Shown: positions 17,478 to 34,149 of the stretch, in pieces
Numbering within the stretch: position 1 is the stretch's first letter
Layout: each line of letters opens with the position of its first letter
Source: an uncultured Ruminococcus sp.
Lineage (GTDB): Bacteria; Bacillota; Clostridia; Oscillospirales; Ruminococcaceae
Direction of reading: 5' to 3'
NCBI GenBank assembly: GCA_949291125.1
Contig: CASEUJ010000016.1
Location: forward strand, 131,946-195,945
DNA length: 64,000 nt
The notes under the pieces: model-generated
Told to the model about the DNA's origin: nothing
Database searches by the model: none
The model's input: the letters and a program-made list of their open reading frames with translations, nothing else
Program-made: the position numbers and the translations under genes

Positions 17478-17690
17478 ATGACAGAAAAAGAGCTGCACAA
17501 GCTCCATAAAACAGAATTATTGGAGATGATGCTGGAGATGCGTACGGAGTTAGACCGGGTGCGTGAAGAGAACACAGTGCTTGAACAAAAGTTGGAGGAG
17601 ACAAATGCACAGCGTGTCTTGCTTGAGAAGATCCTCGGCATTGTCGAAGAAACGGCGGCACAGGTCAAAGGGATATCGGCGCAAAAGTAG
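17478..17690 (+). CDS. Small coiled-coil protein at the head of the pilus operon
   Basis: A 70-residue, highly charged, probably all-helical protein. Leucines and isoleucines recur in a heptad-like pattern through TELLEMMLEMRTELDRV and LEQKLEE, so a coiled-coil dimer is likely. It has no signal peptide, no membrane segment and no cysteines, so it should stay in the cytoplasm. GGTGAGGTGG precedes the ATG. I do not recognise a family. Being the first gene after the pilus promoter, 22 bases before the signal peptidase gene, it may regulate or assist export of the pilus proteins; that is inference only. Confidence 0.75.
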   Translation: MTEKELHKLHKTELLEMMLEMRTELDRVREENTVLEQKLEETNAQRVLLEKILGIVEETAAQVKGISAQK

Positions 17691-17712
17691 AAGATTCGGA
17701 GTAGTGAGAAAT

Positions 17713-18297
17713 ATGGAGGAAGAGAAATTACAGACATTCCCGACAGTGCAGCAGCTGGAGGTTGAATTGAAGCGCCGCAGATATCGAAGCGGTTACTTCC
17801 GGTTATTGCGGAGCACGGTGTCATCCCTGTTGGTAGTAGCGGCGATCGCAGTCTTGATCTCAATGTTGTTTTTACCGGTGCTTCGAGTCACGGGGACGAG
17901 TATGACGCCAACATTGCAAAATGATGAGCTTGTGGTGTGCAGCAAGCGGAGCAATTTTGAATGCGGCGATGTAGTGGCGTTTTATTACAACAATAAAATT
18001 TTATTAAAGCGTGTGATTGGTCTTCCTGGGGATATTATCGATCTACAGGAAGACGGTACAGTATATGTGAATGGGGAACCATTAGAGGAACCGTATCTGA
18101 GTGAAAAGGCATTTGGGGAGTGTGATATTGACCTTCCGTATCAGGTACCGGACAATCGGATTTTTGTGATGGGGGATCACCGGTCGACTTCGGTCGACAG
18201 CCGTTCGACAACGGTTGGCTGTATCGCGGAGGAGTATGTGATCGGAAGAGTGATCTTTCGGATCTGGCCGATAGAAGCGATCGGCACATTGCGCTAA
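17713..18297 (+). CDS. lepB: Signal peptidase I of the pilus operon
   Basis: A 194-residue membrane-anchored signal peptidase I. One helix lies at about residues 36-56, and the catalytic parts face outside: serine 63 in VTGTSMTPTL and lysine 99 in ILLKRVIGLPGDII, followed by the family boxes VYVNGEPLEEPYL and FVMGDHRSTSVDSR. The serine/lysine dyad marks the prokaryotic P-type and not the ER-type SipW. I start at ATG 17713 with a CGGAG site upstream; GTG 17704 is possible. Signal peptidases placed in Gram-positive pilus operons (SipA-like) are known to act in pilus assembly; unlike inactive SipA homologues, both catalytic residues are present here. Confidence 0.9.
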   Translation: MEEEKLQTFPTVQQLEVELKRRRYRSGYFRLLRSTVSSLLVVAAIAVLISMLFLPVLRVTGTSMTPTLQNDELVVCSKRSNFECGDVVAFYYNNKILLKRVIGLPGDIIDLQEDGTVYVNGEPLEEPYLSEKAFGECDIDLPYQVPDNRIFVMGDHRSTSVDSRSTTVGCIAEEYVIGRVIFRIWPIEAIGTLR

Positions 18298-18342: not shown

Positions 18343-21300
18343 ATGGATATGAATCGCAAGGCAGAATCGTATCTCACAAAGCATAAATATCAAAAGCGGA
18401 AAACGATTTGCACCGCGCTTCTTTCGGTGCTTATGGTGTTCTGCGTGGTCAGTAGCCTGATTATGCCTGCGGTGAGTATGACGATCGACGCAGTACAGGA
18501 GTTTGTGGTAGAACAGGAAGAGATGGAGCTGTATGCAGCACCGCCAGCGGATGCACCGAATGCGGTAGATATTATGATCGGGACATATACTGTGACAGTG
18601 ACAGTGGCTAGAGATCATGTGATTTACAGCAATGATAGTACTACTTCAACTGAGGATTATACGATTTCAGGGAATGAAACAGATATTGCCTTTGATTTAT
18701 CTTACACAATAAATAATGTAGTAGAGAGGCTACCATCCAGGGGACCACATTTATATATGTCGATTGGAAACTTGACCGACTGCGTGTCGTTTAATGAACA
18801 GCAGGCAACAGGGAATGTTTCTGATGAAGCGTATTTTCTTGAAATAGGGGAAGATTCTGCCGGTACTTATGCTATTGATGAAGAAGGCTACATTAAAATC
18901 ACATTGACTGACCGATATATTACATATTTGCATGATCAGGCAGGCGGTAATCTGGTCGGTACCCTGAATTTTTCTGGTACGATCAGCCGCGCAAATACTG
19001 AAACTGGCGACCAGACCTTGAATATCGGCGATCAGGAAATCACCGTAAAATTTGAAGATCGCTATCCCGAGATCACCAGTAAATCGGGAAGCCTCGATAC
19101 AACAGATGGCACAATTGACTGGACAGTTGTAATCAACAATTCTGATGGAATCGATTTGAGCGGTTATCAATTTACGGATTCTATGTTGAAGGATTCTGGT
19201 ATCTCACTGGCAGAGGACACATCAATTGTGATTGAACCTTCAACCGCGGCTACGGAAAATGGAAAGACTATTACCTTTACCGCTGGTTCAAAAGATGCGA
19301 AAACAATTACAATAAAATACACCACAAAACTGACGGAAGAACAACTGAAAACAAATGCCGCATCTTTAAATAATACCGCGCAATTGACAAAAGATAACTA
19401 TACCAGCGAAAAAACCGGTAGCGTCTGGTTGTCCAACGCATTCACCGTCAACAAATCTGGTGCGCCGAATTATACATCCAAGAAGATCGATTGGACAATC
19501 ACGATTCAAAGTGAATACGGTGTATCGTTGGATGAGTATCGGATTGAGGATCAAAATATTCCGGCTTCTGGAGCTACGGTTTCTCCCAGTGGGACGCTAA
19601 AAAATGAAGGCAATGGCGTATGGTCGCTTTCGGGAACAAATGGTGCCAAGACTGTTACCATTAGCTACTCTACCGATCCTTCCAAAACTGATGAGACTGT
19701 AACAGACAACAACACAGTCAATTTGCAATTCCCCTCCGGGAAGCCGACAGGTGACAGCACCACAGCATCTGTTACCTATAAAAAGCAGAGTGACTTGATC
19801 AACTTCAATAAGAGTGTGGCAAGCTATAATCAGGACACTCACGAGATCACTTGGAGCATTACGGTAACACCGGAGTGGCTGGAAAATGAAAATCGGCATT
19901 ACAGCTTAGAAGGATACTCCTTAACAGATAGTAAGTTTAGTAGCTTAACATTAGATGATCTGACTTTTGAGCCGGGCAATCTGGATTTGAAAAATGACAA
20001 TAGAGTCACTTTGACTGGGGATACGCTGACCTTCCATACTGATGTGTGTCAGATTGTAACGATCACTTATAAAGAAAGGGTGGAGTTTGAAGGCACCAAA
20101 GCAGTTACTGTGACAAACCCGATCAGCGACAGCAATGGGCATACTACTACAGTCGAAACAGCGGTGACGCCCAGAAATTCGTTTTCGAAAACGCTTGTCG
20201 GCTCTGATACAAAAACAGAAGCTGCCAATGGGCAACTTAACGAAACATTAAACTGGCAGGCGGAAATTCTGTGGGATGGAAAGTTTGCAAATTTGTCGCT
20301 ACAAGATACGCCTGGCGTTACGATTCATGTGGCAAGCGGTGTACATGCATCGCATACGCTAAATCGGGATTCCATCGTGGTGAAGGCGAAGAAGGCGTCT
20401 GGGGATGGATATACGACAATCGACGCATCGAACTATACCATTGCCTCTAATGACACCGGCTTTACCATTACGTTTCATGACAACAATACACTTGACACAA
20501 ACGGCTATAACTACGTACTGATCGAATATTCCACCACCGCAACAATGGATTCGGTGCAGGGTGTGGAGAATGCATTTGCAAATGGTAGTATTGAATACAA
20601 ATTTACCAACAAGGGATCGTTTAATGGGCTTCAATCTGAAGAGAACACCTTTACGTTCATTCGCACAAATCCTGATGTCGATGAAAAAGCAGATATTACC
20701 ATTACGAAGCAATGGAATGATCAGGACAATGCCGCAGGAAGACGCCCCGATAACGTTACCGTAAAACTGGAATACAAGAAAAAGGTAGGCGATACATGGG
20801 ATGTCAGCTGGCATGATGTAAAAGGCATACAAGGCAATTACCTGTTTTATAACGAAGCAGAAGCAGAAGGCTCTACCAATAATTCAGCTTATCGCGATGC
20901 CAGCGTATTTGAGTATGTGTTGGATTCCAACAACAACTGGAGCATGAATCTTGAGACTTTGGGACTTCCCAAGGTAGAAGCCTCTGCAAATGCTGACGGC
21001 ACACAGGGGACAATTACGGAATATTGTTATCGCGTCGTAGAAGTTAAGGCAGGGGATACTGAGATTTCCAACAACTTCTTCAGAGTAGAGAATGGTTCCT
21101 ATGAAGTCACGTATCTGGCGAATAACGGAACGTCGCTATTCGAAAACGGGATTCAGTCCGGCACGATGACGATCACAAATACATTCCGGAAAAATATTGC
21201 AGTTCAGGCAAAAAAGACCTGGGATGGAGATGGAAAAACGTATCCGGTTGTGGTAACGCTGCAGAGAAGCTATGATGGACAAAATTGGTCGGATTATACG

Positions 21301-24300
21301 CCGACTGACAGCAGTAGCGCAACGGTAATGCTCGATTCTGCAAATGAATTCTCCCATATTTGGGATAATCTTCCTGCCATGGGCGTTGAAAACAATGTAC
21401 ACGTCGAATATCAATATAGAATTGTTGAGACGAAGTTTGACGGTCAGGAAGTGACAGATGACGGGCAAAGATTTGTGATCCGGAACGATGACCAAACGAT
21501 TGCCGGTTATTATGAAGTGACCCAGCGTATCAGCGCGACAGCGAAATCTAATTCGTCAAATAATCTTGATACACAAACCTTAGAAGTCAAGAATACGTAT
21601 CACCCGACGAATACGATTACCATTTCTGCGAATAAGAAATGGTCGGATGAAGCACATCAATTAAAGGGCGTTGTTGTCCAGCTGCAAAGAAAAGCAGAAG
21701 GAGCGAATCCTACAGATTGGGAAGCGTATCCAGATGATGATACTTCAAAACAGACATTGGATAGCAAAAATAACTGGACTTGCAGCTGGAGTGATCTTCC
21801 GAACCAACAGATCGACGAAAACAACAATATCACAAAGTACACCTATCAGGTTGTAGAAGTTGGCGTGCAAAACGGTGATTCTACTGTGAATTTCGGCGAC
21901 CAGGTACAGTCCGAACAAAAGTTCGCCGTTGAAACAGATGGTTATTATGAAATCAGCTATTCTACTGCGAGCGGCGGGGTAAATCATACAAATTCGCTTG
22001 ATGCAAGTGGGACGATTTATGTAACCAATACGTATCGATCTGTCGCTACTGCCAGCATTACGCCGCAGAAGGTGTGGAAAGATGATAGCGCATATGCCAA
22101 CCAGAGACCTGAAGTTACCTTTGAATTGCAGCAGAAGATCGGCGATGGCGAATGGCAATCATTACATGGCGAATTGCAAAATGGCGTATTTGTTGTGGAT
22201 GAAAGCAAGGATGCTTATCGCGTTACGCTGAATTCACAAAATCAAGTGTCCTGGAGTGATTCTACATGGGAACTGGCAACGATTACTGGTCTGCCGGAAA
22301 AGGTGTTGACTGTAAATTCTGCGAATGGGACATATACGGAAACGTATTGCAGCTATCGGTTTGTAGAAGTTGTGACGGTAGATGGACAGGAGCAGATACT
22401 TGCAGATGGCGGAGAGTTTAACCCGTCCTATACTGGTACAGATGGTATTGTAGAGGGAAAATATACAATCAGCATCAATGGTGGAACTGTTACGAATACA
22501 TTCAAGGAGTCAACAGGAATCTTGAAAAATATTCTGGATAAAAACGGAAATTCTATCAACACCATCACAAAGGATGATCTGGATACATGGCCAACGATGA
22601 CAGTTGAAGGAGAAGAATATTATGTTTTTAACTGGATTATTGAGTTTGAGGTTTTTAGGAGTGAAAGTATTAATGACATTCAATCTCCGGTTATAGATGT
22701 ACTGCCAGAAGGATTTTCTTTATGTACTGATTCTACCAAGAATGGAAATCCATCGAATTTAGGTCCAGGTGGGTACATAGATCCAGACGATATTGTTGCA
22801 ACATCTGATGTTATGTATCAGGTAAAAAGAGCAGTTGGTGATTATTATCCATCCCCATTGTTTATTTGGCGTACTTATTATGCCGTTTGGATGTCAGAAA
22901 ATACTGAAGCCAATTTATGGGAAATGTGGGATCGGAACGATCGTTATTACTATGAAGAAAATTATAGTGGTAAAACGATTGGCAACTGGGTTTATAAAGA
23001 TGCAGATGGAAATGAATACACAGGTTCTGTTTTAAACCCAGAACTTGTAGGCAAAAATATTGTTATATTTAACAAGCCTTATAATTCTGCCTCGCTTTCT
23101 CCAATTATCGCTTACAGTACAAAAATCAAATGCTCTGAATTGGATGCAAAGGTAGAGAAAGGAAGCTATACATTCTCCAATGATGCAGAACGGTATACGG
23201 TTAACACGAGTGCAAAAGAAGTTACTGCAACTGGTTACACCGCTTCTGCCTCCCTCACCATCACCAACACCCAAAACCGCGGTTTGATCACCAAGGACTA
23301 CAGTGCAACGCTGATTCCTGGTTACATCCAATACAGTCTGGATGTTAACCCGGAGGGCAAGAACCTCTCCACAGGTGATACCATTGATATTGCGGATCTG
23401 TTTCAGACGAACAGCTATTATGACCACGACTGGAATACCAGCAACAAGGCCACAGATGAAACAACATATGGAGATAAGCTGATCGATGTTGTCATGAATA
23501 ATATTCGTGTGTATCAGTATGATGCCAATGGCAACGAGACGTTGCTTCCAGTGAATCAATACACGATTCTGTTCCAGAACAGCAGTGAACTGGACACCGG
23601 TGCGGCGCTGTTACAGATGACAGTTCCGGATGAAATGCATCTTCGTATTGTCTATTCATATAAGCTTGTGGCGAATGAAAATACACCATCTGTCCTGAAT
23701 GGCTGTTTAAGCTCGACCAGAGAAAATGGCAGATACGCAGTGATGCGTCCCGGACTGATTCCACCCGAAGGCGATAGGATTGTATTTTCAAATACAGCAA
23801 CGCTGACATCGGATAGTGCCACAGATTCCAGTTCAGAGAATAATATTGAGTATGAGGTGTTCCGTTCAGGCGGCACGATCTCGACAAATACACTCCCGAG
23901 TATTACAAAAGTGAATACCGGCGACTATACCATAAACGATCTGGATGCGACCTTCTTGCTTGCAAGGTATGACGTTGCGAGCGGCATGTGGTATTATGCG
24001 GGCGAGATCGGCGACAAAGGCGTGATCACCTGGGAAGAAGATGGCTATACCAATACATCCCTTTCAAGTTCGGCCGTTAAAATTGATACTGCCGGTGGCG
24101 CAGTTTCAGTCGATCTGGAGGAGAGTGTCCTCTATAAGCTGGTGGAAATTTCAGTGCCGGCTGGTTATGAGGGATCGGATCTGACCAATTCCAGCGGCGC
24201 CGTATTAAGCGCAGCGGAATATGAAGCACTAATCAGAGCCTATCTCAACAGCGGCGTAACAATTACAGGCGGTATTAATTACAGAAACTTCCTGACCAAC

Positions 24301-27300
24301 CATGTGCATATCCACTATTTTGCCTATAACAGTACCCTGAGCGGCGATGCACTGCCGGCTGGGGTGACATCCGAAAATGTGATGCAGATCAGAACCGGCG
24401 GAAATATCGAAATTCCCAACAACGAGCTTGTGGATATTACCGTCAATAAGAGCTGGATCGGGACGGACGGCAATGTGGAAGAGAATAAGGATGCTTCTGT
24501 TACAGTAGAATTGTACTGGTCTTACACAAAATCTTCTACAGGAATTCCGGAAGATGCAACGCTGGCAACGGCAGAGAATCTGGGGATCGTGGGAAGCGAT
24601 TTTACGAATATCAAAAAGATTATAACACCCGAACAACTGCCGACAACGCCAACATGGGAAAATTTGCCGAATGGTAAAAATGACCGACCGATTTATTATT
24701 ACATCAAAGAGACGGCGTATACCATTGGCGAAAAAACCTATGAACTGATGGACAATGGACAATATATTTGTACCGAAGACAGTTCAAACGGTGGGTATTT
24801 GCCGACGTATATCGGAAATGCATCTTATGTTACAACGGGCTCCGATGATACAGTGCAGAATAATGTTCATGTCACTATAAACAATTCTCAACAGCTGATG
24901 CTGAAAAAAGTGTGGAGAAATGCAGACGGCGGCGAATTGGCTGAGCGGTATATCCCAATAGATACATTGCAAGTAGCAATTTATGGATATGATGCAGACA
25001 ATCAGAGAACAGCGAATCCTCTGGTTACCACCACATTGAAAAAATCAGAGAGTTGGCAAACGAATATCACAAATTTGGTACAAAATATCGATCTGAGCCA
25101 GTATAAAAGTTTTGAGGCAGTTGAAATTGGCAGCAATGCGAGTCTGGATGGTTTTGTAGTCAGCTGTGTCTTCAACCTGAACCAGAACACCGGCGAGATC
25201 ACGGTTACCAACCGTAGCACCCAGCCGACAGAGGCCTCTGTTACAGTCAATAAGATTTGGAGCGATGGTGCTGATCTGCATAAGAGCGATTCTGTTGCAG
25301 TGACGTTGTATCGGACAGTGGCACAAGTGCGAAGTGATCAACTCACAAATCTGACTGCGGATATGCTCATAGAGGAGTATAATGCACATGTTGTGACACC
25401 GACAGATAAAAACGACACACAAAAGTATGAAAATGTGCTGCTCAGTGCCAACAACAACTGGACCTACACTTGGACAGGATTGCCGCTGGATAATGGAACA
25501 GATGACACGGATGCAACGCAATCATATTACTATTATGCGGTGGAGACTCAGATCAACGCGGCAGATTCTGACGAATATACGCCTACTTATGAGGCCGTGG
25601 TCAACGGCGCAAAGACCACCTATAACATCACCAACACCCGAAACGCCATTGTGGTACAAAAACAGTGGTATGACGAAGACGGCAATGTGCTCGTCAAGTA
25701 TAATGAAAACGGCGAGCTGGTGGATGCAGAAGGGAATGTGCTGAGCGATGCAACGTATGAGCTGTATGATAGCTTAAAAGCAACGGTCGAGGTGTATCGG
25801 CAGACGGTGCAGGCACCGGAAGATGGGATTGACATCCTGGCGTTGGGTGATTCTATTACAAATGGTGATGGAAATGGCGGCACAGGTTATTTGAGTTATT
25901 TGGTGGATAATCTTGAAAATGAAAGCATTGGGATTAATGTAAATAATTCATATAAATGTGGTCACTCTGGCTATGCAATTAAGTCAATGTCATATGGCTC
26001 ACTACCTGAAGGACTAACCTTTACGGAGAGTCGAAGCGGTATTTACGATTGTGTTGATACTGATTTCAATGGAAGGAACCCTGACATTGTTCTATTGATG
26101 GCTGGTACAAATGATATCATTAGTAACTATCGTACTGGTATTACGGATAGACTTCATGAATTAATTGATAAAGTTCAAAGTGTTGCCCCGGATGCAGTAA
26201 TATTTGTGGCAAGTATACCTGATTTTAATTTGGACGGAACACCCTATGGAACTGTAGTGAGTCAAAACTGGTTTAAATATTATGACCAGACAACAGGTGA
26301 TGTTGTATCTAACCATCAAGTAACTTATGATACTGCATTTGAAACTATGATCAATGGCTTCATTGATGATTATAATTCCAGCATTCAGTCTCTCGTAAAT
26401 CAGCTATCTGCACAAGGCGAAAAAGTGCAATACGTAGATATTAATAGCGTCGTATTGCAAGAACACTTGACAGATGATGGTTGTCATCCGAATGATGCTG
26501 GTAACAAAGCTATGGCAGCTAAGTGGGCAGAAGCCATCAACGACTACTACACCACATCCGACGCCGAAGCATTTCAAACAACGGTCACCCTTAACCGCAC
26601 CAACAACTGGACGGCAGCAGTAGACGTTCCGGATGACGGCGCATATTATGTGAAAGAAACGGCACCCACAAGCGGCTGGACAGTTACTTATTCCGATCCG
26701 TCCACAACGGATGAACCCAGCGGAACACCCATCAGTCAGACGGCTGGCGGTACAGTTCTGATCATGAATACGCGTCATACTCCAGAAACTGAGCTTACTG
26801 TAGAAAAAACGTGGGAAAAGGATACGGCGGCCGACCGACCGGCCAGCATCACGCTGACGTTGCTGCGGCGAGTTGGTACAACGGGCAACTGGGAAGAATA
26901 TCGAGCGACGCCGACAGCTGTAAAGGATGATGCAAATGGAAAGTGGACATTGACCTATTCAAATCTTCCGATGCAAGACCTTGGTGGCGACACCTACTAC
27001 TATAAAGTAGAGGAAACGAGAGTACCAGAGGGCTATACCGTATCGTATGGTACAAATAATGGCCCGGATGGCGAGGGCGTTATGGCACAGGACGGCGCCT
27101 CTGCCGGGACGCTGACTCTCACTAACACCCGTTCGGTTTCTCTGAAACTGCAAAAAGTGTGGGATGACCAGAATCAGGATCACACAGGCGACAGCGTAAC
27201 TGTGAAATTGTATCGCTCGACAACTGAGCCGACGGACACCGCCAATCTCGCACTTTCCCTTAGCTCGAGTAATGTTTCGGTGAGCGCGGATGGAACCGCG

Positions 27301-29586
27301 AAGGTGACGGCAAATAAGACGATTACCGGAGCAACGATTCTTTCCGACGATTCAGATATTGCAACTGCTTCTCTCGGCGAAGATGGAATAACCATTACCA
27401 TTAATGGCATATCCCAGGGGACGACCCAAATTACTGTCATGTATGAAAATGATAGTGGTGTGGAAGAGACGGCGACGATCGGGGTTACGGTTTCGAACTT
27501 GAAGATTTTATTGGATGATGCAGAAACCTATACCATGACTGCTGGAACGTCTGGCATATTATCTGCGACGATGGATAGCGAAGAGGTAAGTGCTACATTT
27601 CGCATAATCGAGGGAAACAATGTAATCTCGCTGGATAGTAACAACACAATTTCGGCGCTGAAAGCAGGCGAAGCGACTGTGCAGGCTGAATATAAGGGGA
27701 TTACAGCGTCTCAGAAAATCGTAGTCAATCTTCCGTCATCCTTCAAAATTGTTGGTGCAGATTCGGTAGATATTGGTGGTACAACAAAACTCAGTATTTC
27801 ACCGGGCGAATTTGGTGCAACATTTACATGGAGCTCCAGTGATAACACCAAAGCGACCGTATCTGATGATGGTACGGTGACAGGTATAGCCGAAGGCACT
27901 GTCACAATTACCGCAAGAAGAGAGGATGGTGTAGAGGTAACCAAAACATTGCAAGTGCAGGAACCCAGCGAAGTAACTATCACAAATGGTGCAACCTACT
28001 ACTTGAATTCGGAGCATACTGATGTGGAAGTAGAGAGCATTATTATTGATGCGAGTGGGGTTGAAGGAGAAGGAAACGAGTATATTGTTTTTTGCAGCTC
28101 TTCTGAAGACGATAACGGAGGCTGGAACTGTAGCTTCTATATGGGACGATACGGTGGGAACTTGCAAGTTGGTACTACATCAGGTTGTAGCGTAACGTTA
28201 AGCAATTCGGTTTACACAATTACTAATATAGATAAATCTATAAATAGAATTGTGTTTAGTCAGGCTTTAACAGGAACCGTTACTATCACCGTTGTACCGA
28301 AGAGCTCCGGCGGTTCCACCACCACAACAACCACCACAACATCCCAAACGACCACGACTACGACTACCACAACAACTACAACTACAACCTTGTCTAAGAA
28401 TTTGACGATCTCAAATGTAAGCGCAGGTCAAACGCTGGAAGTTACCATATCTGGCGGCGTGCCGAATGCAACGGTAAACGGCTGTTATGGTTTCAATGCG
28501 ACAAGTGGTTGGTATCAAGATGGGTGGTCAGGAACGCTTGATGGAGATGGAAACCTGACATTACCTGCATATACAATTCCTGATACAATAGTGGACACTT
28601 CTTTGCAATTCCAGATATGGTGGGATTCGGGCGGAACGTTGTCTGCCAATAATGTGACATATACGCTCACATCCGGCGGAGAAACCCCTGAGCCAGAACC
28701 AGACCCATCACCGGGTGGAGATACTGTTACAGGTGGACCAATAACAGTAAGCAGTGACCAAAATATTCAAGTACGGACAGATACAGCCATTCAAAGTATA
28801 ACATTTGAATTTGATAATATTACCTCTGTTTACAATTTACACGTTTATTTAGATAATTGGACGAGGCAATTTAATATTAAATGTGATGGTACACAATTGA
28901 TGCAAGACACAGATAAGACTTGGAATGTAGGAACTTGCATTATTGATGGTAATACTGTGACTGTAAACTTGAATTATACGTCTTCTGGTTCTTTGGTATT
29001 CCATAATGATGGCGGGCGGTCTGATGCAGCTCCACCAATAAAAAGCTACACCATCACCTACGCCTCCACCAACGCCCTCACCCTCTCCGCCGCCGACGCT
29101 CCGATTCAGCTCTATGCTGCGAGTGAAGTAAATAGTGCGCCAAGCACCAAGAGTGCGGCAAGCGAGTGGACATGGACGAGTGATTCAAAGGGTTCGTATA
29201 TCACCATCACCATTGATCGGGTTCCGAATCAAGGCGAAGAGGAATGGACCTATATCGTCGAAAACCTCGAACCTTATGATTCCAGCGAAAATTCATACTA
29301 CTACTGGGCAGAAGAAGTGAGAGATGGTGTGACAACCGGCTACACGCCGCTCTACACCTACACTGATGACGATCCGGCTCAGGACACGGCGCTCAACGCC
29401 GGGAACCTCGGCGACGGCACGATCACGATCCGCAATGTCAAAACCCAGACCACAAACGTCACCCTCCCCTCCACCGGCGGTACAGGGACGAGGATGTACA
29501 CCATCACAGGCGCGGCTCTAATGGGCAGTGCAACCGCCGCTTATATTCTCATCAGACGACGGCGAAAAGCAAGTCGTATGAAATAA
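18343..29586 (+). CDS. Giant LPXTG adhesin with CnaB chain, embedded SGNH hydrolase and binding modules
   Basis: A 3747-residue surface protein, probably the pilus tip adhesin. Order: export helix about 20-47; adhesin-type immunoglobulin-like domains to about 780; CnaB domains from about 781, 952, 1090 and 1234; further isopeptide/SpaA-like domains to about 2000; CnaB domains from about 2030, 2183, 2298, 2433, 2815 and 2929; LPSTG at 3708-3712, a hydrophobic helix and an RRRRK tail. Typical CnaB units run V-x-K-x-W, VKLYR, YxYxVVE and ITNT, giving the Lys/Glu/Asn of intramolecular isopeptide bonds. The domain at 2433 is interrupted at about 2493-2742 by an SGNH hydrolase: GDSIT (Ser2504), GTND (2588-2591) and DGCH (Asp2712, His2715). 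The last CnaB is interrupted at about 2967-3625 by Big-type domains, a Thr-rich linker (3326-3348), a PEPEPDPSP linker and carbohydrate-binding-like beta modules. AAGGAGG precedes the ATG. Confidence 0.93.
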   Translation: MDMNRKAESYLTKHKYQKRKTICTALLSVLMVFCVVSSLIMPAVSMTIDAVQEFVVEQEEMELYAAPPADAPNAVDIMIGTYTVTVTVARDHVIYSNDSTTSTEDYTISGNETDIAFDLSYTINNVVERLPSRGPHLYMSIGNLTDCVSFNEQQATGNVSDEAYFLEIGEDSAGTYAIDEEGYIKITLTDRYITYLHDQAGGNLVGTLNFSGTISRANTETGDQTLNIGDQEITVKFEDRYPEITSKSGSLDTTDGTIDWTVVINNSDGIDLSGYQFTDSMLKDSGISLAEDTSIVIEPSTAATENGKTITFTAGSKDAKTITIKYTTKLTEEQLKTNAASLNNTAQLTKDNYTSEKTGSVWLSNAFTVNKSGAPNYTSKKIDWTITIQSEYGVSLDEYRIEDQNIPASGATVSPSGTLKNEGNGVWSLSGTNGAKTVTISYSTDPSKTDETVTDNNTVNLQFPSGKPTGDSTTASVTYKKQSDLINFNKSVASYNQDTHEITWSITVTPEWLENENRHYSLEGYSLTDSKFSSLTLDDLTFEPGNLDLKNDNRVTLTGDTLTFHTDVCQIVTITYKERVEFEGTKAVTVTNPISDSNGHTTTVETAVTPRNSFSKTLVGSDTKTEAANGQLNETLNWQAEILWDGKFANLSLQDTPGVTIHVASGVHASHTLNRDSIVVKAKKASGDGYTTIDASNYTIASNDTGFTITFHDNNTLDTNGYNYVLIEYSTTATMDSVQGVENAFANGSIEYKFTNKGSFNGLQSEENTFTFIRTNPDVDEKADITITKQWNDQDNAAGRRPDNVTVKLEYKKKVGDTWDVSWHDVKGIQGNYLFYNEAEAEGSTNNSAYRDASVFEYVLDSNNNWSMNLETLGLPKVEASANADGTQGTITEYCYRVVEVKAGDTEISNNFFRVENGSYEVTYLANNGTSLFENGIQSGTMTITNTFRKNIAVQAKKTWDGDGKTYPVVVTLQRSYDGQNWSDYTPTDSSSATVMLDSANEFSHIWDNLPAMGVENNVHVEYQYRIVETKFDGQEVTDDGQRFVIRNDDQTIAGYYEVTQRISATAKSNSSNNLDTQTLEVKNTYHPTNTITISANKKWSDEAHQLKGVVVQLQRKAEGANPTDWEAYPDDDTSKQTLDSKNNWTCSWSDLPNQQIDENNNITKYTYQVVEVGVQNGDSTVNFGDQVQSEQKFAVETDGYYEISYSTASGGVNHTNSLDASGTIYVTNTYRSVATASITPQKVWKDDSAYANQRPEVTFELQQKIGDGEWQSLHGELQNGVFVVDESKDAYRVTLNSQNQVSWSDSTWELATITGLPEKVLTVNSANGTYTETYCSYRFVEVVTVDGQEQILADGGEFNPSYTGTDGIVEGKYTISINGGTVTNTFKESTGILKNILDKNGNSINTITKDDLDTWPTMTVEGEEYYVFNWIIEFEVFRSESINDIQSPVIDVLPEGFSLCTDSTKNGNPSNLGPGGYIDPDDIVATSDVMYQVKRAVGDYYPSPLFIWRTYYAVWMSENTEANLWEMWDRNDRYYYEENYSGKTIGNWVYKDADGNEYTGSVLNPELVGKNIVIFNKPYNSASLSPIIAYSTKIKCSELDAKVEKGSYTFSNDAERYTVNTSAKEVTATGYTASASLTITNTQNRGLITKDYSATLIPGYIQYSLDVNPEGKNLSTGDTIDIADLFQTNSYYDHDWNTSNKATDETTYGDKLIDVVMNNIRVYQYDANGNETLLPVNQYTILFQNSSELDTGAALLQMTVPDEMHLRIVYSYKLVANENTPSVLNGCLSSTRENGRYAVMRPGLIPPEGDRIVFSNTATLTSDSATDSSSENNIEYEVFRSGGTISTNTLPSITKVNTGDYTINDLDATFLLARYDVASGMWYYAGEIGDKGVITWEEDGYTNTSLSSSAVKIDTAGGAVSVDLEESVLYKLVEISVPAGYEGSDLTNSSGAVLSAAEYEALIRAYLNSGVTITGGINYRNFLTNHVHIHYFAYNSTLSGDALPAGVTSENVMQIRTGGNIEIPNNELVDITVNKSWIGTDGNVEENKDASVTVELYWSYTKSSTGIPEDATLATAENLGIVGSDFTNIKKIITPEQLPTTPTWENLPNGKNDRPIYYYIKETAYTIGEKTYELMDNGQYICTEDSSNGGYLPTYIGNASYVTTGSDDTVQNNVHVTINNSQQLMLKKVWRNADGGELAERYIPIDTLQVAIYGYDADNQRTANPLVTTTLKKSESWQTNITNLVQNIDLSQYKSFEAVEIGSNASLDGFVVSCVFNLNQNTGEITVTNRSTQPTEASVTVNKIWSDGADLHKSDSVAVTLYRTVAQVRSDQLTNLTADMLIEEYNAHVVTPTDKNDTQKYENVLLSANNNWTYTWTGLPLDNGTDDTDATQSYYYYAVETQINAADSDEYTPTYEAVVNGAKTTYNITNTRNAIVVQKQWYDEDGNVLVKYNENGELVDAEGNVLSDATYELYDSLKATVEVYRQTVQAPEDGIDILALGDSITNGDGNGGTGYLSYLVDNLENESIGINVNNSYKCGHSGYAIKSMSYGSLPEGLTFTESRSGIYDCVDTDFNGRNPDIVLLMAGTNDIISNYRTGITDRLHELIDKVQSVAPDAVIFVASIPDFNLDGTPYGTVVSQNWFKYYDQTTGDVVSNHQVTYDTAFETMINGFIDDYNSSIQSLVNQLSAQGEKVQYVDINSVVLQEHLTDDGCHPNDAGNKAMAAKWAEAINDYYTTSDAEAFQTTVTLNRTNNWTAAVDVPDDGAYYVKETAPTSGWTVTYSDPSTTDEPSGTPISQTAGGTVLIMNTRHTPETELTVEKTWEKDTAADRPASITLTLLRRVGTTGNWEEYRATPTAVKDDANGKWTLTYSNLPMQDLGGDTYYYKVEETRVPEGYTVSYGTNNGPDGEGVMAQDGASAGTLTLTNTRSVSLKLQKVWDDQNQDHTGDSVTVKLYRSTTEPTDTANLALSLSSSNVSVSADGTAKVTANKTITGATILSDDSDIATASLGEDGITITINGISQGTTQITVMYENDSGVEETATIGVTVSNLKILLDDAETYTMTAGTSGILSATMDSEEVSATFRIIEGNNVISLDSNNTISALKAGEATVQAEYKGITASQKIVVNLPSSFKIVGADSVDIGGTTKLSISPGEFGATFTWSSSDNTKATVSDDGTVTGIAEGTVTITARREDGVEVTKTLQVQEPSEVTITNGATYYLNSEHTDVEVESIIIDASGVEGEGNEYIVFCSSSEDDNGGWNCSFYMGRYGGNLQVGTTSGCSVTLSNSVYTITNIDKSINRIVFSQALTGTVTITVVPKSSGGSTTTTTTTTSQTTTTTTTTTTTTTTLSKNLTISNVSAGQTLEVTISGGVPNATVNGCYGFNATSGWYQDGWSGTLDGDGNLTLPAYTIPDTIVDTSLQFQIWWDSGGTLSANNVTYTLTSGGETPEPEPDPSPGGDTVTGGPITVSSDQNIQVRTDTAIQSITFEFDNITSVYNLHVYLDNWTRQFNIKCDGTQLMQDTDKTWNVGTCIIDGNTVTVNLNYTSSGSLVFHNDGGRSDAAPPIKSYTITYASTNALTLSAADAPIQLYAASEVNSAPSTKSAASEWTWTSDSKGSYITITIDRVPNQGEEEWTYIVENLEPYDSSENSYYYWAEEVRDGVTTGYTPLYTYTDDDPAQDTALNAGNLGDGTITIRNVKTQTTNVTLPSTGGTGTRMYTITGAALMGSATAAYILIRRRRKASRMK

Positions 29587-29671
29587 AAACGTAAAAACAG
29601 GAGTATGCGGCATCCGTCGTCGGAGAATGCGGCGGAACCGCAGTTCCATAAAACTCTCAAGGAGGTATTTT

Positions 29672-31420
29672 ATGAAAAACACAAAAAAATTCGCGAGTAT
29701 CGCAACCGCAGCTCTGTTGGCAGCTTGTACAGTGGTTCCGTCAATGGCGTCTTTGCCGGTTTGGGCGGCAGGGAATAATACCATTACAATTGAAGGATTC
29801 AACACAGCAACCTCAAATGACGATGGTACCCACACTTATGAAGCATATCAGGTATTCTCGGGTAATTATGCTGATGGCGTTCTGAGTAATATTCAGTGGG
29901 GTAGTGGCGTTAATCAGGAAGGTTTGTTGGATGCTGTGAAAGCAATTACACTTTCTACAGGCATTATTGTAGAACAAGGTGGATTAGCCACAACAACGCC
30001 GTTTGCTAATGTAGAAAGTGCTGCTGACGTTGCCAATATTCTCTCAGGATATTATGCAACAGGCGAAGCTACTGATATCACTGCATTTGCTGATGATGCA
30101 GAAATTGCACAAGCTTTTGCTGATGTGATTGGTACGCATTTGAGAACAGCGACAGGTATTTCATCAGGTGGCTCGATTTCAGGGCTGGATGATGGTTACT
30201 ATTTGGTTCAGGATACAAGTGATTCTCCGAGTTCAACTGTTGGTGAAGATAATAGCGGCGCAAAGACTCGTTTCATTTTGAAAGTTGTTGGTGGAACCAC
30301 TGTAACAGTCCAAGCAAAAAGTTCTGCACCATCTGTTGTAAAGAAGGTTAAAGAAAACACAGATGTATCCGATTATGAAGATCCTTCTAGCGCTACATGG
30401 GCAGATTACAATGATGTTGCAGACTATAACATTGGTGATGAGGTACCGTTCTTGCTGGTAGGTACACTTCCATCTACGTTGAATGATTACAGCGAATATA
30501 AGTACGTTTTCCATGATACATTGGATTCACAATTTACAATTACAGATGATACAACAGTTATCGTTAAAATTGATGGCACTGATAAAACTGAAAGTGCAAC
30601 AATTACAAAAACTCCCGGAACTAATACGATCACAGTTCAGTTTGATGATATTATTGCTGCTGGTGCAACGGCAGACAGTGTCGTTACAGTGGAATACTCT
30701 GCGGTTTTGAATGAGAATGCTGAAATTGGTCTCCCCGGTCAGGAAAACGAAGTGTATCTGACATATTCCAATAATCCGAATTGGTCGGGCATAGGAACAC
30801 CGGATGACAATGGTCAAACTCCAGTAGATAAGGTTATCGTATTTACATATGAACTGGATGTAACCAAGTATTTAGGGGATAAAAGCGAAACAGCAAATGC
30901 GACTTCTGGAACGCAGGCAGGATTTAAGTTATATAGCCAGGCAAAAGCACAGTGGGCAACTGTGAATACGACTGGCGGCGTAAATAAGATTACAGGTTGG
31001 ACTTCGAACAAAGAGGATGGTACGGAAGTCAAAACTAATGGTGATGGTAAATTTAGTTTTGTGGGATTGGACGATGGACAGTATACACTGAGCGAAACCA
31101 CAACGCCGAGTGGATATAACACAATGGCTGATTTGACGATTACCATTGATGCGGATACTTCCAATACCCAAACATGGACCGAGACTCCTTCGGATGCACT
31201 GACGGCAATTAAATTGACAGGTATGGGCACAAGTGACATCACTGGTGACACAACTTCTGGTATTGTAGCTGGTGAAATCATCAACCAGAAGGGCTCTACT
31301 CTCCCCTCCACCGGTGGTATCGGTACCACAATCTTCTACATCGGCGGCGGTGTGCTGGTTGTTGGCGCTGGCGTGCTGTTGATCACGAAGAAGCGCGCAA
31401 AGTCCGCAGAAGAAGCATAA
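29672..31420 (+). CDS. Major (backbone) pilin, LPXTG
   Basis: A 582-residue pilin subunit that a class C sortase would polymerise. It has a signal peptide (TAALLAACTVVPSMASLPVWA), an N-terminal domain about 35-220, a fimbrial isopeptide-type domain from about 225 starting PSVVKKVKENTDV, a SpaA/CnaB-like domain from about 395 (ELDVTKYLG to GQYTLSETTTPSGY), and the sorting signal LPSTG at 544-548, a glycine-rich helix and a KKRAKS tail. A lysine in VVKKVKEN sits where backbone pilins carry the lysine joined to the next subunit; which lysine is used is not certain. The ATG is set by AAGGAGG at 29659-29665. It lies directly before the sortase C gene, the usual order. Confidence 0.9.
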   Translation: MKNTKKFASIATAALLAACTVVPSMASLPVWAAGNNTITIEGFNTATSNDDGTHTYEAYQVFSGNYADGVLSNIQWGSGVNQEGLLDAVKAITLSTGIIVEQGGLATTTPFANVESAADVANILSGYYATGEATDITAFADDAEIAQAFADVIGTHLRTATGISSGGSISGLDDGYYLVQDTSDSPSSTVGEDNSGAKTRFILKVVGGTTVTVQAKSSAPSVVKKVKENTDVSDYEDPSSATWADYNDVADYNIGDEVPFLLVGTLPSTLNDYSEYKYVFHDTLDSQFTITDDTTVIVKIDGTDKTESATITKTPGTNTITVQFDDIIAAGATADSVVTVEYSAVLNENAEIGLPGQENEVYLTYSNNPNWSGIGTPDDNGQTPVDKVIVFTYELDVTKYLGDKSETANATSGTQAGFKLYSQAKAQWATVNTTGGVNKITGWTSNKEDGTEVKTNGDGKFSFVGLDDGQYTLSETTTPSGYNTMADLTITIDADTSNTQTWTETPSDALTAIKLTGMGTSDITGDTTSGIVAGEIINQKGSTLPSTGGIGTTIFYIGGGVLVVGAGVLLITKKRAKSAEEA

Positions 31421-31464: not shown

Positions 31465-31490
31465 GTCTGCCGGGCATGAACCCGGCAGGC
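31465..31490 (+). other. Stable hairpin between pilin and sortase genes
   Basis: CTGCCGGG (31467-31474) and CCCGGCAG (31481-31488) form an eight-pair GC-rich stem with loop CATGAA, extended by outer pairs. No T-run follows, so it is not a classic terminator. It lies between the highly expressed pilin and the sortase and could protect the upstream mRNA end or lower read-through. Confidence 0.75.
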
Positions 31491-31505
31491 ATTAGGGAGG
31501 ACCTC

Positions 31506-32423
31506 ATGAGAACAAAGAAACGAAAATTCAATATGATTTCCACAATCGTGTTGGTCGTTCTGTTTCTGGTGGGGCTCTCCGTGATGCTTTATCCAACCAT
31601 CAGCGATTGGTGGAACTCTCGTGTACAGAGTTATGCTATTGCCGACTATGACCAATCGGTCGAACAAATGGACGACAGTGAAAAAGAAAAAATGCTCGCC
31701 GCAGCACATGCCTATAATGCGTCACTGCGTGAATTGAATTCGCCTTTTGAAAATTATGACGAAATCCCCGGCTATGAGGAACTTCTGAATATTTCCGGCA
31801 CGGGGATCATGGGATATATTTCGATTCCGCAGATCAATGTTGAACTGCCGATTTATCATGGCACAAGCCCCGAAGTTCTGAACATTGCCGTTGGACATCT
31901 CCAGGGTTCTTCTCTGCCTGTCGGCGGAAGCGATACCCACTCGGTAATTTCTGCCCATCGCGGTCTGCCGTCGGCGCGGCTGTTCAGCGATCTGGATCAA
32001 CTTGTGGAGGGTGACACATTCACAATTACGATTTTAGACGAAATTTTTACCTATGAAGTAGAAAAAATTCTGATTATCGAACCGGATGAAGTCGATAAGC
32101 TTGCCATCATTCCCGGCGGCGACTATGTCACACTGATGACCTGTACACCATATGGCATCAATTCCCATCGGCTTCTGGTACGTGCCCATCGGGTTGACAC
32201 TGTTTATCCCCATGATGTCAAGGTTTCTGCCGATGCAGTCCAGCTGGATTCGATGTCGGTCGTGCCGTTTATCGCAGCGCCGCTGTTTTTGCTCCTGCTC
32301 TTAAAGTGGATTCTCGACGGCAAGCGAAAAAAGCACATACGCCACAAGTCAAAATATCAGTTGTCGTACGAAGACAGCGTGCTGAAACGTAAGGAGGGAG
32401 ATGTTCCATGCAAAAAAAATTAG
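31506..32423 (+). CDS. srtC: Class C (pilus) sortase
   Basis: A 305-residue transpeptidase that cuts LPXTG and joins pilin subunits through lysine side chains. It has an N-terminal helix (about 11-29) and a C-terminal helix (about 250-270, PFIAAPLFLLLLLKWIL), the two-anchor plan of class C. Catalytic residues are His151 (SAHRGL), Cys213 (TLMTCTPYG) and Arg222 (NSHRLLVR). The region before the core, around LNSPFENYDEIPGY, is where class C enzymes carry a lid with a DP-aromatic motif; here it reads SPF, so the lid may differ. The ATG follows GGGAGG. The stop overlaps the next gene by 16 bases. Confidence 0.93.
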   Translation: MRTKKRKFNMISTIVLVVLFLVGLSVMLYPTISDWWNSRVQSYAIADYDQSVEQMDDSEKEKMLAAAHAYNASLRELNSPFENYDEIPGYEELLNISGTGIMGYISIPQINVELPIYHGTSPEVLNIAVGHLQGSSLPVGGSDTHSVISAHRGLPSARLFSDLDQLVEGDTFTITILDEIFTYEVEKILIIEPDEVDKLAIIPGGDYVTLMTCTPYGINSHRLLVRAHRVDTVYPHDVKVSADAVQLDSMSVVPFIAAPLFLLLLLKWILDGKRKKHIRHKSKYQLSYEDSVLKRKEGDVPCKKN

Positions 32424-33481
32424 TTCGCCGATGCGGCATGCTTGTAGTTGCATTGGGTCTGATGATCTGCCTGACGGCGCATCTTTGTCTGCCGCCGGTT
32501 TTTGCCGCCGAATCCGAGACATGTTCGCTGACACTGGTATGTGAAGTCGAAGATGTGATCTTGTCCGACACCACATGGAATTTTTATCGTGTCGGGGAAC
32601 ATGTAGAAGATCACACGTATGTTTTGACGGGAGATTTTGCGGATTACCCGGTTTCGATGGAAAATCTGACCGATAAAGCAATGCAGGATGCGGCAGACAC
32701 ATTAGAAAATTATGCCGTTCTCGACAAAATTGAGCCAGACGATACCGGTGTTACGGATGAATCGGGCATGTTGACTGTTGATTCACTCAAGCCGGGATTG
32801 TACCTGCTGTCCGGCACGTCGAAGACAATTGGTTATACGGAATATATTCCGTCGGCAATCCTGATTGATCTGACTGCCGATGGCGAGACGTTTGACTTCA
32901 CCGCTTATCCAAAATACCGCGTACAGGATACGCTCAGCGGTACGGTTGTACGCTTTACTGTGCAAAAAGTCTGGATGAATGATGACGATCAGCCAGAAAG
33001 CCGTTCGACTGCGCTAAAAGTTTCCATTTATCAGGATGAAGATCTTTACGAAGAAGTAACCTTGACCGAAGAAAACGACTGGAGCTATACATGGAACGGT
33101 TTAGCAGAATCTGATTGGCGTGTGGAAGAGGTTGAAGTGCCGGAAAATTATACGGTAATCTATCGTTCGAACGAGCAGCAATATCTGATTGTGAATACCT
33201 ATGAGGAGAAAGCGCCGCCATCGAAAACCACAACCATGACGACCACACCATCAGAAACAACTGTGATAACACAGACCACAACGCAAACGGATCAGCCGCC
33301 TGTAACAACAATGCGCACAAATTCGCCAGGTGGTGGATCTTCAAATAGTTCCAATTCCAGCAGTCGACTGCCGCAGACCGGGCAGCTCTGGTGGCCGGTA
33401 CCAGTTCTAATCGGTGGGGGTCTGGTGTGCATGGTGATTGGCTGGCGGCTTAGCAAAAAGCATAAGAGAGGGATTCGATGA
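32408..33481 (+). CDS. Minor LPQTG pilin with CnaB domain
   Basis: A 357-residue cell-wall anchored protein, probably the basal or accessory pilin. Signal peptide about 1-36 (ending PPVFAAES), an N-terminal beta domain about 38-170 containing SLKPGLYLLSGTSKT, a CnaB domain from about 180 (FTVQKVWMNDDDQPE, WRVEEVEVPENY, LIVNTY), a threonine-rich linker about 275-300, LPQTG at 321-325, helix and a KKHKRG tail. Its sorting motif (LPQTG) differs from the LPSTG of the adhesin and backbone pilin, so it may be the subunit moved to the wall by the second sortase. Overlaps srtC by 16 bases and the next sortase gene by four. Confidence 0.88.
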   Translation: MQKKLVRRCGMLVVALGLMICLTAHLCLPPVFAAESETCSLTLVCEVEDVILSDTTWNFYRVGEHVEDHTYVLTGDFADYPVSMENLTDKAMQDAADTLENYAVLDKIEPDDTGVTDESGMLTVDSLKPGLYLLSGTSKTIGYTEYIPSAILIDLTADGETFDFTAYPKYRVQDTLSGTVVRFTVQKVWMNDDDQPESRSTALKVSIYQDEDLYEEVTLTEENDWSYTWNGLAESDWRVEEVEVPENYTVIYRSNEQQYLIVNTYEEKAPPSKTTTMTTTPSETTVITQTTTQTDQPPVTTMRTNSPGGGSSNSSNSSSRLPQTGQLWWPVPVLIGGGLVCMVIGWRLSKKHKRGIR

Positions 33482-34149
33482 GACGATCGCGCAGTTTTTG
33501 GTGGATTGTGGGTGGACTGATATTGCTGTTGGCGGCGGCGTGTCTTGCGGGATATAATTTCCTTCAGGACAAAAACGGCGAAAAAACGGCGCAGTCGGCG
33601 TTGTCTGAGATACAGGCGCAGATTTCCACATCCGCAGACGCAAAGCCGCAGCAGATGCAAGAAAACGATTTATATGCCGAATATGTTGCTGATATGCCAC
33701 AGGAAGAGGTGTTGATCGAGATTGATGGGTACACGTATCTTGGCTATCTCTCGATTCCGTCACTGGACTTAGAGTTGCCGGTGTTGAGTGAGTGGAGCTA
33801 TCCAAATCTGCGGGTTGCACCGTGTCGCTATGGCGGAACAGTCGCAGACGGCAATCTAATGATTGCGGCGCATAACTATCGCTCTCACTTTGGCAGAATT
33901 GGCGAGCTTGTGTCCGGTGATGCAATCTATTTTACCGACGGCAGCGGTACGGTACACGAATATGAGGTGATCCAGTCCGAATTGATCGCCGGTCATGATG
34001 TTCCTGCGATGGAAGCAAATGCGGAGAGCTGGGACTTGACGCTGTTCACCTGTACCTGGAGCGGACGCAATCGTGTGACGGTGCGCGCAGTAGAAGTGCA
34101 GAAGGATAATCACACGCTTACAGTTCCCCAAGAAACAATTACACCATAA
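33478..34149 (+). CDS. Second sortase of the pilus operon
   Basis: A 223-residue sortase with one N-terminal membrane helix (about 8-28) and no C-terminal anchor. Catalytic residues are His132 (IAAHNY), Cys192 (LTLFTCTWSG) and Arg199 (GRNRVTVRA). Lack of a lid and of a second helix separates it from class C; its strand order resembles the class B/D group, but I would not assign a class from eye alone. A likely job is to attach the finished pilus, or its LPQTG base, to the wall. The four-base overlap with the minor pilin gene makes coupled translation likely. Last gene of the operon. Confidence 0.86.
   Translation: MRRSRSFWWIVGGLILLLAAACLAGYNFLQDKNGEKTAQSALSEIQAQISTSADAKPQQMQENDLYAEYVADMPQEEVLIEIDGYTYLGYLSIPSLDLELPVLSEWSYPNLRVAPCRYGGTVADGNLMIAAHNYRSHFGRIGELVSGDAIYFTDGSGTVHEYEVIQSELIAGHDVPAMEANAESWDLTLFTCTWSGRNRVTVRAVEVQKDNHTLTVPQETITP

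Follow-up and report, generated by a model that had tools for sequence, protein, structure and literature searches.

Other domains can be inserted into both the CnaA and the CnaB fold, and the cargo is usually an isopeptide or adhesion domain (vWA, thioester or CnaB; PMC12617251). The pilus adhesin Cpa/Spy0125 of Streptococcus pyogenes has an entire thioester adhesion domain within a loop of a CnaB-like isopeptide domain, flanked by the residues that form the isopeptide bond (PMC12617251, PMC6194298), and in the tip adhesins RrgA, GBS104 and Mfa5 the strands of a CnaA-like stalk domain, itself locked by an isopeptide bond, are interrupted by an adhesive vWA domain (PMC7835359). Here we analyse a giant LPXTG pilus adhesin encoded on a 64,000-nucleotide stretch of DNA (the window) from an uncultured Ruminococcus sp. 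(contig CASEUJ010000016.1, positions 131,946 to 195,945), in which a complete SGNH hydrolase appears to lie inside a single CnaB domain. The placement is that of the Cpa insert, but the cargo is a hydrolase that varies between relatives with similar flanks; likewise, RrgA, GBS104 and Mfa5 share the insertion between strands but, unlike the Ruminococcus adhesin, hold no enzyme. SpyTag and SpyCatcher were derived from a CnaB domain. In the engineered SpyRing, an enzyme placed between split-CnaB parts is locked by an isopeptide bond, and enzymes are toughened by this closure between SpyTag and SpyCatcher (PMC4748275); the present arrangement resembles that design, whereas SpyRing was built for heat resistance and our case would be natural, lies inside an adhesin and has a bond that is predicted only.

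The initial annotation of this DNA, made from the letters alone, had taken the arrangement to be possibly new. It missed that domain insertion into CnaB as such is already known, from the thioester domain of Cpa/Spy0125. Among the matches listed in a search of open-licence literature, no title or abstract opening placed an enzyme inside a CnaB domain; in passages of PMC3022926 and PMC11271431, SGNH hydrolases are encoded apart from the pilus genes, neither PMC8286594 nor PMC9210967 mentions a lipase, an esterase or SGNH in its main text, and the words lipase, esterase and hydrolase are absent from the main text of PMC12617251. The principle of insertion is thus known; what appears to be new is that the cargo is an enzyme and that it is exchanged.

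A complete SGNH hydrolase apparently inside one CnaB domain

The adhesin and the parts of its interrupted domain (split CnaB 1) are as follows, the bounds of the split domain (residues 2434-2811) and of the insert (residues 2495-2736) having been set by hand on aligned relatives:

18343..29586, + strand: giant LPXTG pilus adhesin, 3747 amino acids, several CnaB domains (TIGR01167, 23.4 bits against a cut-off of 15.9)
25642..25824, + strand: N-terminal part of split CnaB 1, residues 2434-2494, with the first strand carrying the putative isopeptide Lys2440, and strand ATVEVYR
25825..26550, + strand: SGNH hydrolase insert, residues 2495-2736, with Ser2504, Asn2590, Asp2712 and His2715
26551..26775, + strand: C-terminal part of split CnaB 1, residues 2737-2811, with Glu2772 and Asn2809

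We found that residues 2500-2723 match PF13472 over the full profile (1-178 of 178) with 67.2 bits, where the cut-off is 32.9 (E 3.5e-18), and that residues 2498-2727 match PF00657 (E 4.4e-17), scores far above chance. The catalytic motifs stand where they had been placed, with GDSIT at 2502 (Ser2504), GTND at 2588 and DGCH at 2712 (Asp2712, His2715), and blocks I (GDS), III (GxND) and V (DxxH) all fall within this complete, full-length PF13472 domain. A structure prediction, as the initial annotation had suggested, gave the insert a modelled alpha/beta/alpha SGNH fold (mean predicted local distance difference test score, pLDDT, of 61.8 in the best of five models and 47.6-55.1 in the other four). 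The top PDB sequence match of the insert is the carbohydrate esterase (CE) 3 enzyme 2vpt (E 1.9e-11); by fold it comes closest to CE2 and CE3 esterases, the CE2 structures 2wab and 2wao scoring as high as CE3, and sialate and peptidoglycan O-acetylesterases also occur among the fold matches. A calcium loop, DFVGxnDxD, is described as general in characterised GDSL-2/CE3 enzymes (PMC9487903); it is absent from the window insert, and five aligned free (stand-alone) enzymes of the genus have DMVG or EMVG. Because this stretch is missing we call the insert CE2/CE3-like rather than CE3. It shares its fold and catalytic blocks with CE2/CE3 esterases (2wab, 2vpt) and with the free SGNH enzymes of the genus, two of which, among those scanned, carry dockerins; unlike those free enzymes it is embedded in an adhesin, falls outside their cluster of 18 and lacks a DMVG-like stretch.

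The initial annotation had assigned positions 25792-26640 to the arrangement; the insert and its edges do lie in that span, but the whole split domain extends over 25642-26775. Its C-terminal part comprises TTVTLNRTNNW, a Glu box that holds Glu2772 and, on the final strand, Asn2809; Lys2440, Glu2772 and Asn2809 fit an isopeptide triad. That the flanks belong to one CnaB domain is supported by MAFFT, which, unprompted, aligned both halves with three CnaB domains of this adhesin that have no insert and left the enzyme mostly as a gap, with a few loop residues of the paralogues scattered within it. Embedding of the hydrolase in one CnaB domain, as first proposed, is supported by Pfam, the fold model, the paralogue alignment and the 14 delimited slots described below. 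We also built a local CnaB hidden Markov model (HMM) from 17 uninterrupted CnaB domains, with 20 shuffles per joined sequence as a control. The joined halves scored 12.2 bits in the window (N-terminal half alone 5.6, C-terminal half alone 11.4), those of six relatives ranged from 14.3 to 46.8 bits, and shuffles reached at most 8.6; the plainest split is that of the relative G010, at 46.8 bits joined and 18.4 and 30.9 for the separate halves.

Could the SGNH domain be a mere bead between two complete CnaB domains, nested in appearance only? The window N-terminal half, weak evidence for a split domain when taken alone, reaches just those 5.6 bits, and Pfam scans name no CnaB over the split domain, matching CnaB domains elsewhere in the adhesin and the LPXTG anchor at its C-terminal end. 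Against this, all 14 slots have no more than the opening strands and the Lys ahead of the enzyme, and the remainder of the domain, with the Glu and Asn, behind it; the G010 halves score far better joined than apart; the unguided alignment places the halves on either side of the enzyme; and in two relatives (G218, G277) the CnaB that follows the homologous upstream CnaB is uninterrupted. We regard the bead arrangement as highly improbable.

The architecture recurs, and some sites are empty

A search of other genomes showed that the architecture recurs: there are 14 fully delimited slots, that of the window and 13 others, a count that leaves out G013 (permuted) and G003 and G009 (both cut by contig ends inside the enzyme). 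In these 14, Lys, Glu and Asn of the CnaB domain are always kept, and the catalytic blocks are GDS in 14, GTN in 14 (three with GTNN instead of GTND) and DGxH in 13. Within the genus, the slot occurs in 9 of 16 searched genomes, namely G002, G007, G008, G010, G013, G015, G003 and G009 besides that of the window, and the other seven, several of them incomplete, gave no clear slot match. At E 1e-40 or better, eight of 396 family genomes matched; three belong to the genus and the remaining five to four further genera, one of the five having three copies. G1008, a genome of another family, likewise carries the slot. Wider, overlapping samples, searched with strict E limits and at most four candidates scored per genome such that weak or distant cases may be missed, yielded the window's own genome each time and otherwise only G1008, in the class sample (order, 1 of 394 genomes; class, 2 of 391; phylum, 1 of 398). 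One family genome, G173, encodes three distinct adhesins in which a CnaB is filled by an SGNH domain (L097, L098, L101).

The CnaB domain upstream of the slot was present in 10 of 297 family genomes at E 1e-12 or better, three of which (G218, G277 and G298; L114, L115 and L116) had no SGNH match; read by eye, their next CnaB is uninterrupted, that is, an empty site. Two further genomes, G012 and G014, gave weak upstream CnaB matches (2.5e-8 and 3.6e-8) in long frames without the sought SGNH motifs, the G014 frame being cut by a contig end, and the stretches read showed no SGNH motifs. Outside these genome sets, none of 127 pattern stretches in viral contigs was confirmed with A1 and 1 of 46 with A2, four plasmid records were returned, none spanning 80% of the query, and 1 of 13 pattern stretches in a genome-contig collection was confirmed, this being the truncated G003 contig.

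Inserts and flanks have different relatives

Exchange of the insert between relatives, a feature unmentioned in the initial annotation, is indicated by conflicting identities. The window and G008 are 60% identical in the flank and 38% in the insert, whereas the window and one of the G173 slots (G173b) are 35% identical in the flank and 59% in the insert, which makes this G173 insert the nearest relative of the window insert among the 14 slots; similarly, G015 and G007 share 73% of the flank and 38% of the insert, and G008 and G007 share 45% and 56%, respectively. The nearest partner by insert differs from the nearest by flank in 13 of 14 slots, although many of these best identities are low. 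In the insert tree the window groups with G173b (99/95) and G007 with G008 and G013 (98/91); in the flank tree the window groups with G008 and G015 with G007 (both 100/99). In approximately unbiased (AU) tests on 14 rows, the insert data rejected window + G008 (p 9e-70) and G015 + G007 (p 3e-7) and the flank data rejected window + G173b (p 3e-5) and G008 + G007 (p 3e-8), p values that are optimistic because the pairs were named after the identities had been seen. Along each of the three pairs that were profiled, identity shifts close to both edges of the insert.

Such a conflict might instead arise from faster evolution of the insert or from old paralogy, with no exchange of a cassette; five slot inserts do sit on long branches, and the three genes of G173 demonstrate that paralogues exist. 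However, faster insert evolution could not make the inserts of the window and G173b closer than their flanks, identity changes near the edge on both sides of the insert in all three profiled pairs, and the AU tests reject insert groupings on flank data and flank groupings on insert data. We therefore consider this explanation unlikely and favour exchange of the insert. As to its source, the 15 slot enzymes and 18 free SGNH enzymes from the genus fall on opposite sides of one branch (100/99). As far as the free enzymes of this genus can tell, this favours exchange from slot to slot over repeated capture of free enzymes. Different enzyme versions in the same place suggest a cartridge-like slot and a grappling fibre made catalytic.

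The slot of G013 (L019:10051-11208) contains an SGNH domain that is circularly permuted, with the H block ahead of the S, G and N blocks. The order is CnaB N-terminal half, SGNH end (profile 198-227 of 227, 34.8 bits), SGNH start (profile 2-198, 154.5 bits) and CnaB C-terminal half, in a single open frame with no N in the locus; the locus lies near a contig end and an assembly error is possible. Permuted SGNH proteins are already known from the AlgX and DHHW families, and AlgX/AlgJ and PatB1 share the H-S-G-N block order with the G013 insert (PMC9487903); unlike them, the G013 permutant retains GDSIT, GTND and DGCH and occupies a CnaB slot.

A second split CnaB domain carries a carbohydrate-binding module

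The last CnaB domain of the adhesin (split CnaB 2, 27136-29445) is interrupted at the loop equivalent to that of split CnaB 1, which the initial annotation had missed:

27136..27228, + strand: N-terminal part of split CnaB 2, residues 2932-2962, with Lys2938
27229..29196, + strand: insert of split CnaB 2, about residues 2963-3618 (~656 amino acids), a Big_2-like region and a carbohydrate-binding module (CBM)
29197..29445, + strand: C-terminal part of split CnaB 2, about residues 3619-3701, with Glu3658 and Asn3698 (from a three-paralogue alignment)

With the local CnaB HMM its joined halves score 52.6 bits against 25.3 and 31.0 apart. The insert contains one recognised CBM, at about residues 3351-3448, which is of the R. 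flavefaciens Cel5A type, a cellulosome-type module. An almost pure threonine run (window 28318-28389, about residues 3326-3349) directly precedes it. From the structural model of split CnaB 2 (mean pLDDT 47.8) we used only the CBM part (model residues 426-523) and, with caution, a match to EbpB; most of its top Foldseek matches are virus capsid proteins, which we rejected as meaningless (root-mean-square deviation >20). In the three relatives with an empty site (G218, G277 and G298), the two ends of the last CnaB, read by eye, lie many hundreds of residues apart, and the cargo is CBM77 in G218 and G277 and CBM_4_9 in G298. CBM77 is listed as a binder of low-esterification homogalacturonan (PMC5943554).

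The adhesin belongs to a pilus gene cluster

The adhesin ends in an LPSTGG anchor at residue 3708, and its gene lies among the following:

17563..18297, + strand: signal peptidase I of the pilus operon (PF10502, E 5.2e-36)
29627..31420, + strand: pilus backbone pilin, LPXTG (PF16569, E 1.1e-19; TIGR04226, 76.3 bits against a cut-off of 30)
31476..32423, + strand: class C (pilus) sortase (NF033745, 281.3 bits against a cut-off of 160)
32408..33481, + strand: minor pilin with a CnaB domain, probably basal (PF05738, E 5.5e-13)
33478..34149, + strand: second sortase (PF04203, E 8.6e-17; TIGR01076, 42.3 bits against a cut-off of 39.35)

In gene order, the adhesin follows signal peptidase I and precedes the backbone pilin, the class C sortase, the minor pilin and the second sortase. 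One cluster unites an LPXTG signal, a class C sortase and a backbone pilin, the combination that marks a sortase-assembled pilus, and gene order and size suggest that the adhesin would be its tip-type pilin.

Discussion

We consider it probable that this protein is a tip-type adhesin in which a CnaB socket, locked by an isopeptide bond, holds a CE2/CE3-like esterase as a cartridge that has been exchanged between lineages while the socket was kept. The chain would exit the CnaB beta-sandwich past strand TVEVYR, fold as a whole SGNH esterase and re-enter to complete the CnaB domain, whose first and last strands would be tied by a Lys2440-Asn2809 isopeptide bond with Glu2772 as the catalyst. The bond in CnaB domains links adjacent first and last strands, and the CnaB domains of Spy0128 were inextensible under tension in atomic force microscopy (PMC12617251). 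Because both inserts lie between the residues predicted to bond, pulling force would be expected to run through the bond and bypass the cargo, and the enzyme would be kept within a covalent ring.

Several points weigh against this reading. Confidence in the fold model is modest (mean pLDDT 61.8 at best). Over the C-terminal half, joining gains less than 1 bit in G008 and the window, between 2 and 7 bits in G002, G007, G013 and G015, and a large amount only in G010 (15.9 bits), and a control with the halves swapped (C then N) scored 9.2 bits against 12.2 in the window, nearly as high because HMMER sums pieces, so that the HMM score is no test of the order of the halves. The DGxH block deviates in one relative (G176, L103), the sole non-canonical case among the 14 slot enzymes, and that enzyme is possibly inactive or reliant on a shifted Asp. 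The pairs in the AU tests were picked after the identities were known, several rows have long branches in both trees, and chimaeric assembly is possible because the relatives are draft genomes.

The deviating block also bears on whether the insert is a used-up enzyme that acts as a lectin-like binding module and not as a catalyst. Adhesins usually bind, and one of 14 inserts has lost the canonical DGxH; yet a triad would be superfluous for a binding role, and GDS (14/14), GTN (14/14) and DGxH (13/14) persist though many insert pairs are less than 40% identical. We judge a purely binding role to be decidedly unlikely, and catalysis to be the probable function.

The initial annotation had the enzyme deacetylating or cutting glycans of host or food; deacylation of plant polysaccharide would be the likelier form of activity. 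Action on host or microbial glycans instead (sialate O-acetyl groups, mucin or peptidoglycan) is unlikely, though the least doubtful of the alternatives that we weighed: fold matches do include sialate and peptidoglycan O-acetylesterases, but the top sequence match is CE3 and the fold agrees best with esterases of CE2 and CE3, the adjacent cartridge is a cellulosome-type CBM, and CBM77 or CBM4/9 occupies that last-CnaB place in three relatives elsewhere. The last CnaB holds a CBM in the same loop, and with plant polysaccharide as the target a plant-fibre bacterium could grip acetylated polysaccharide via the CBM and remove acyl groups at the contact point of the pilus. Swapping of the enzyme cartridge between adhesins of different lineages, with the socket constant, would probably retune the substrate. 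Tentatively, and with rather more doubt than confidence, we extend this to the CnaB domains of these pili as general cartridge sockets, a natural SpyRing in which an isopeptide-closed loop lets tension bypass a ring-locked enzyme or CBM cargo, the cargo being exchanged by recombination between adhesins of different genera and even open to circular permutation while the socket persists.

Gram-positive pili have been viewed as sticky-ended ropes, and an enzyme in a locked stalk domain would make the contact point catalytic. If true, the general-socket reading would describe a pilus counterpart of the modular enzyme attachment of the cellulosome, within a single polypeptide; the enzyme in its locked domain would show a means of carrying a folded enzyme on a load-bearing fibre and would be nature's version of the solution that engineers reached with SpyRing. 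Exchangeable cargo in a fixed socket would offer a ready-made scaffold, and may give fibre-degrading gut bacteria a route to retune their targets.
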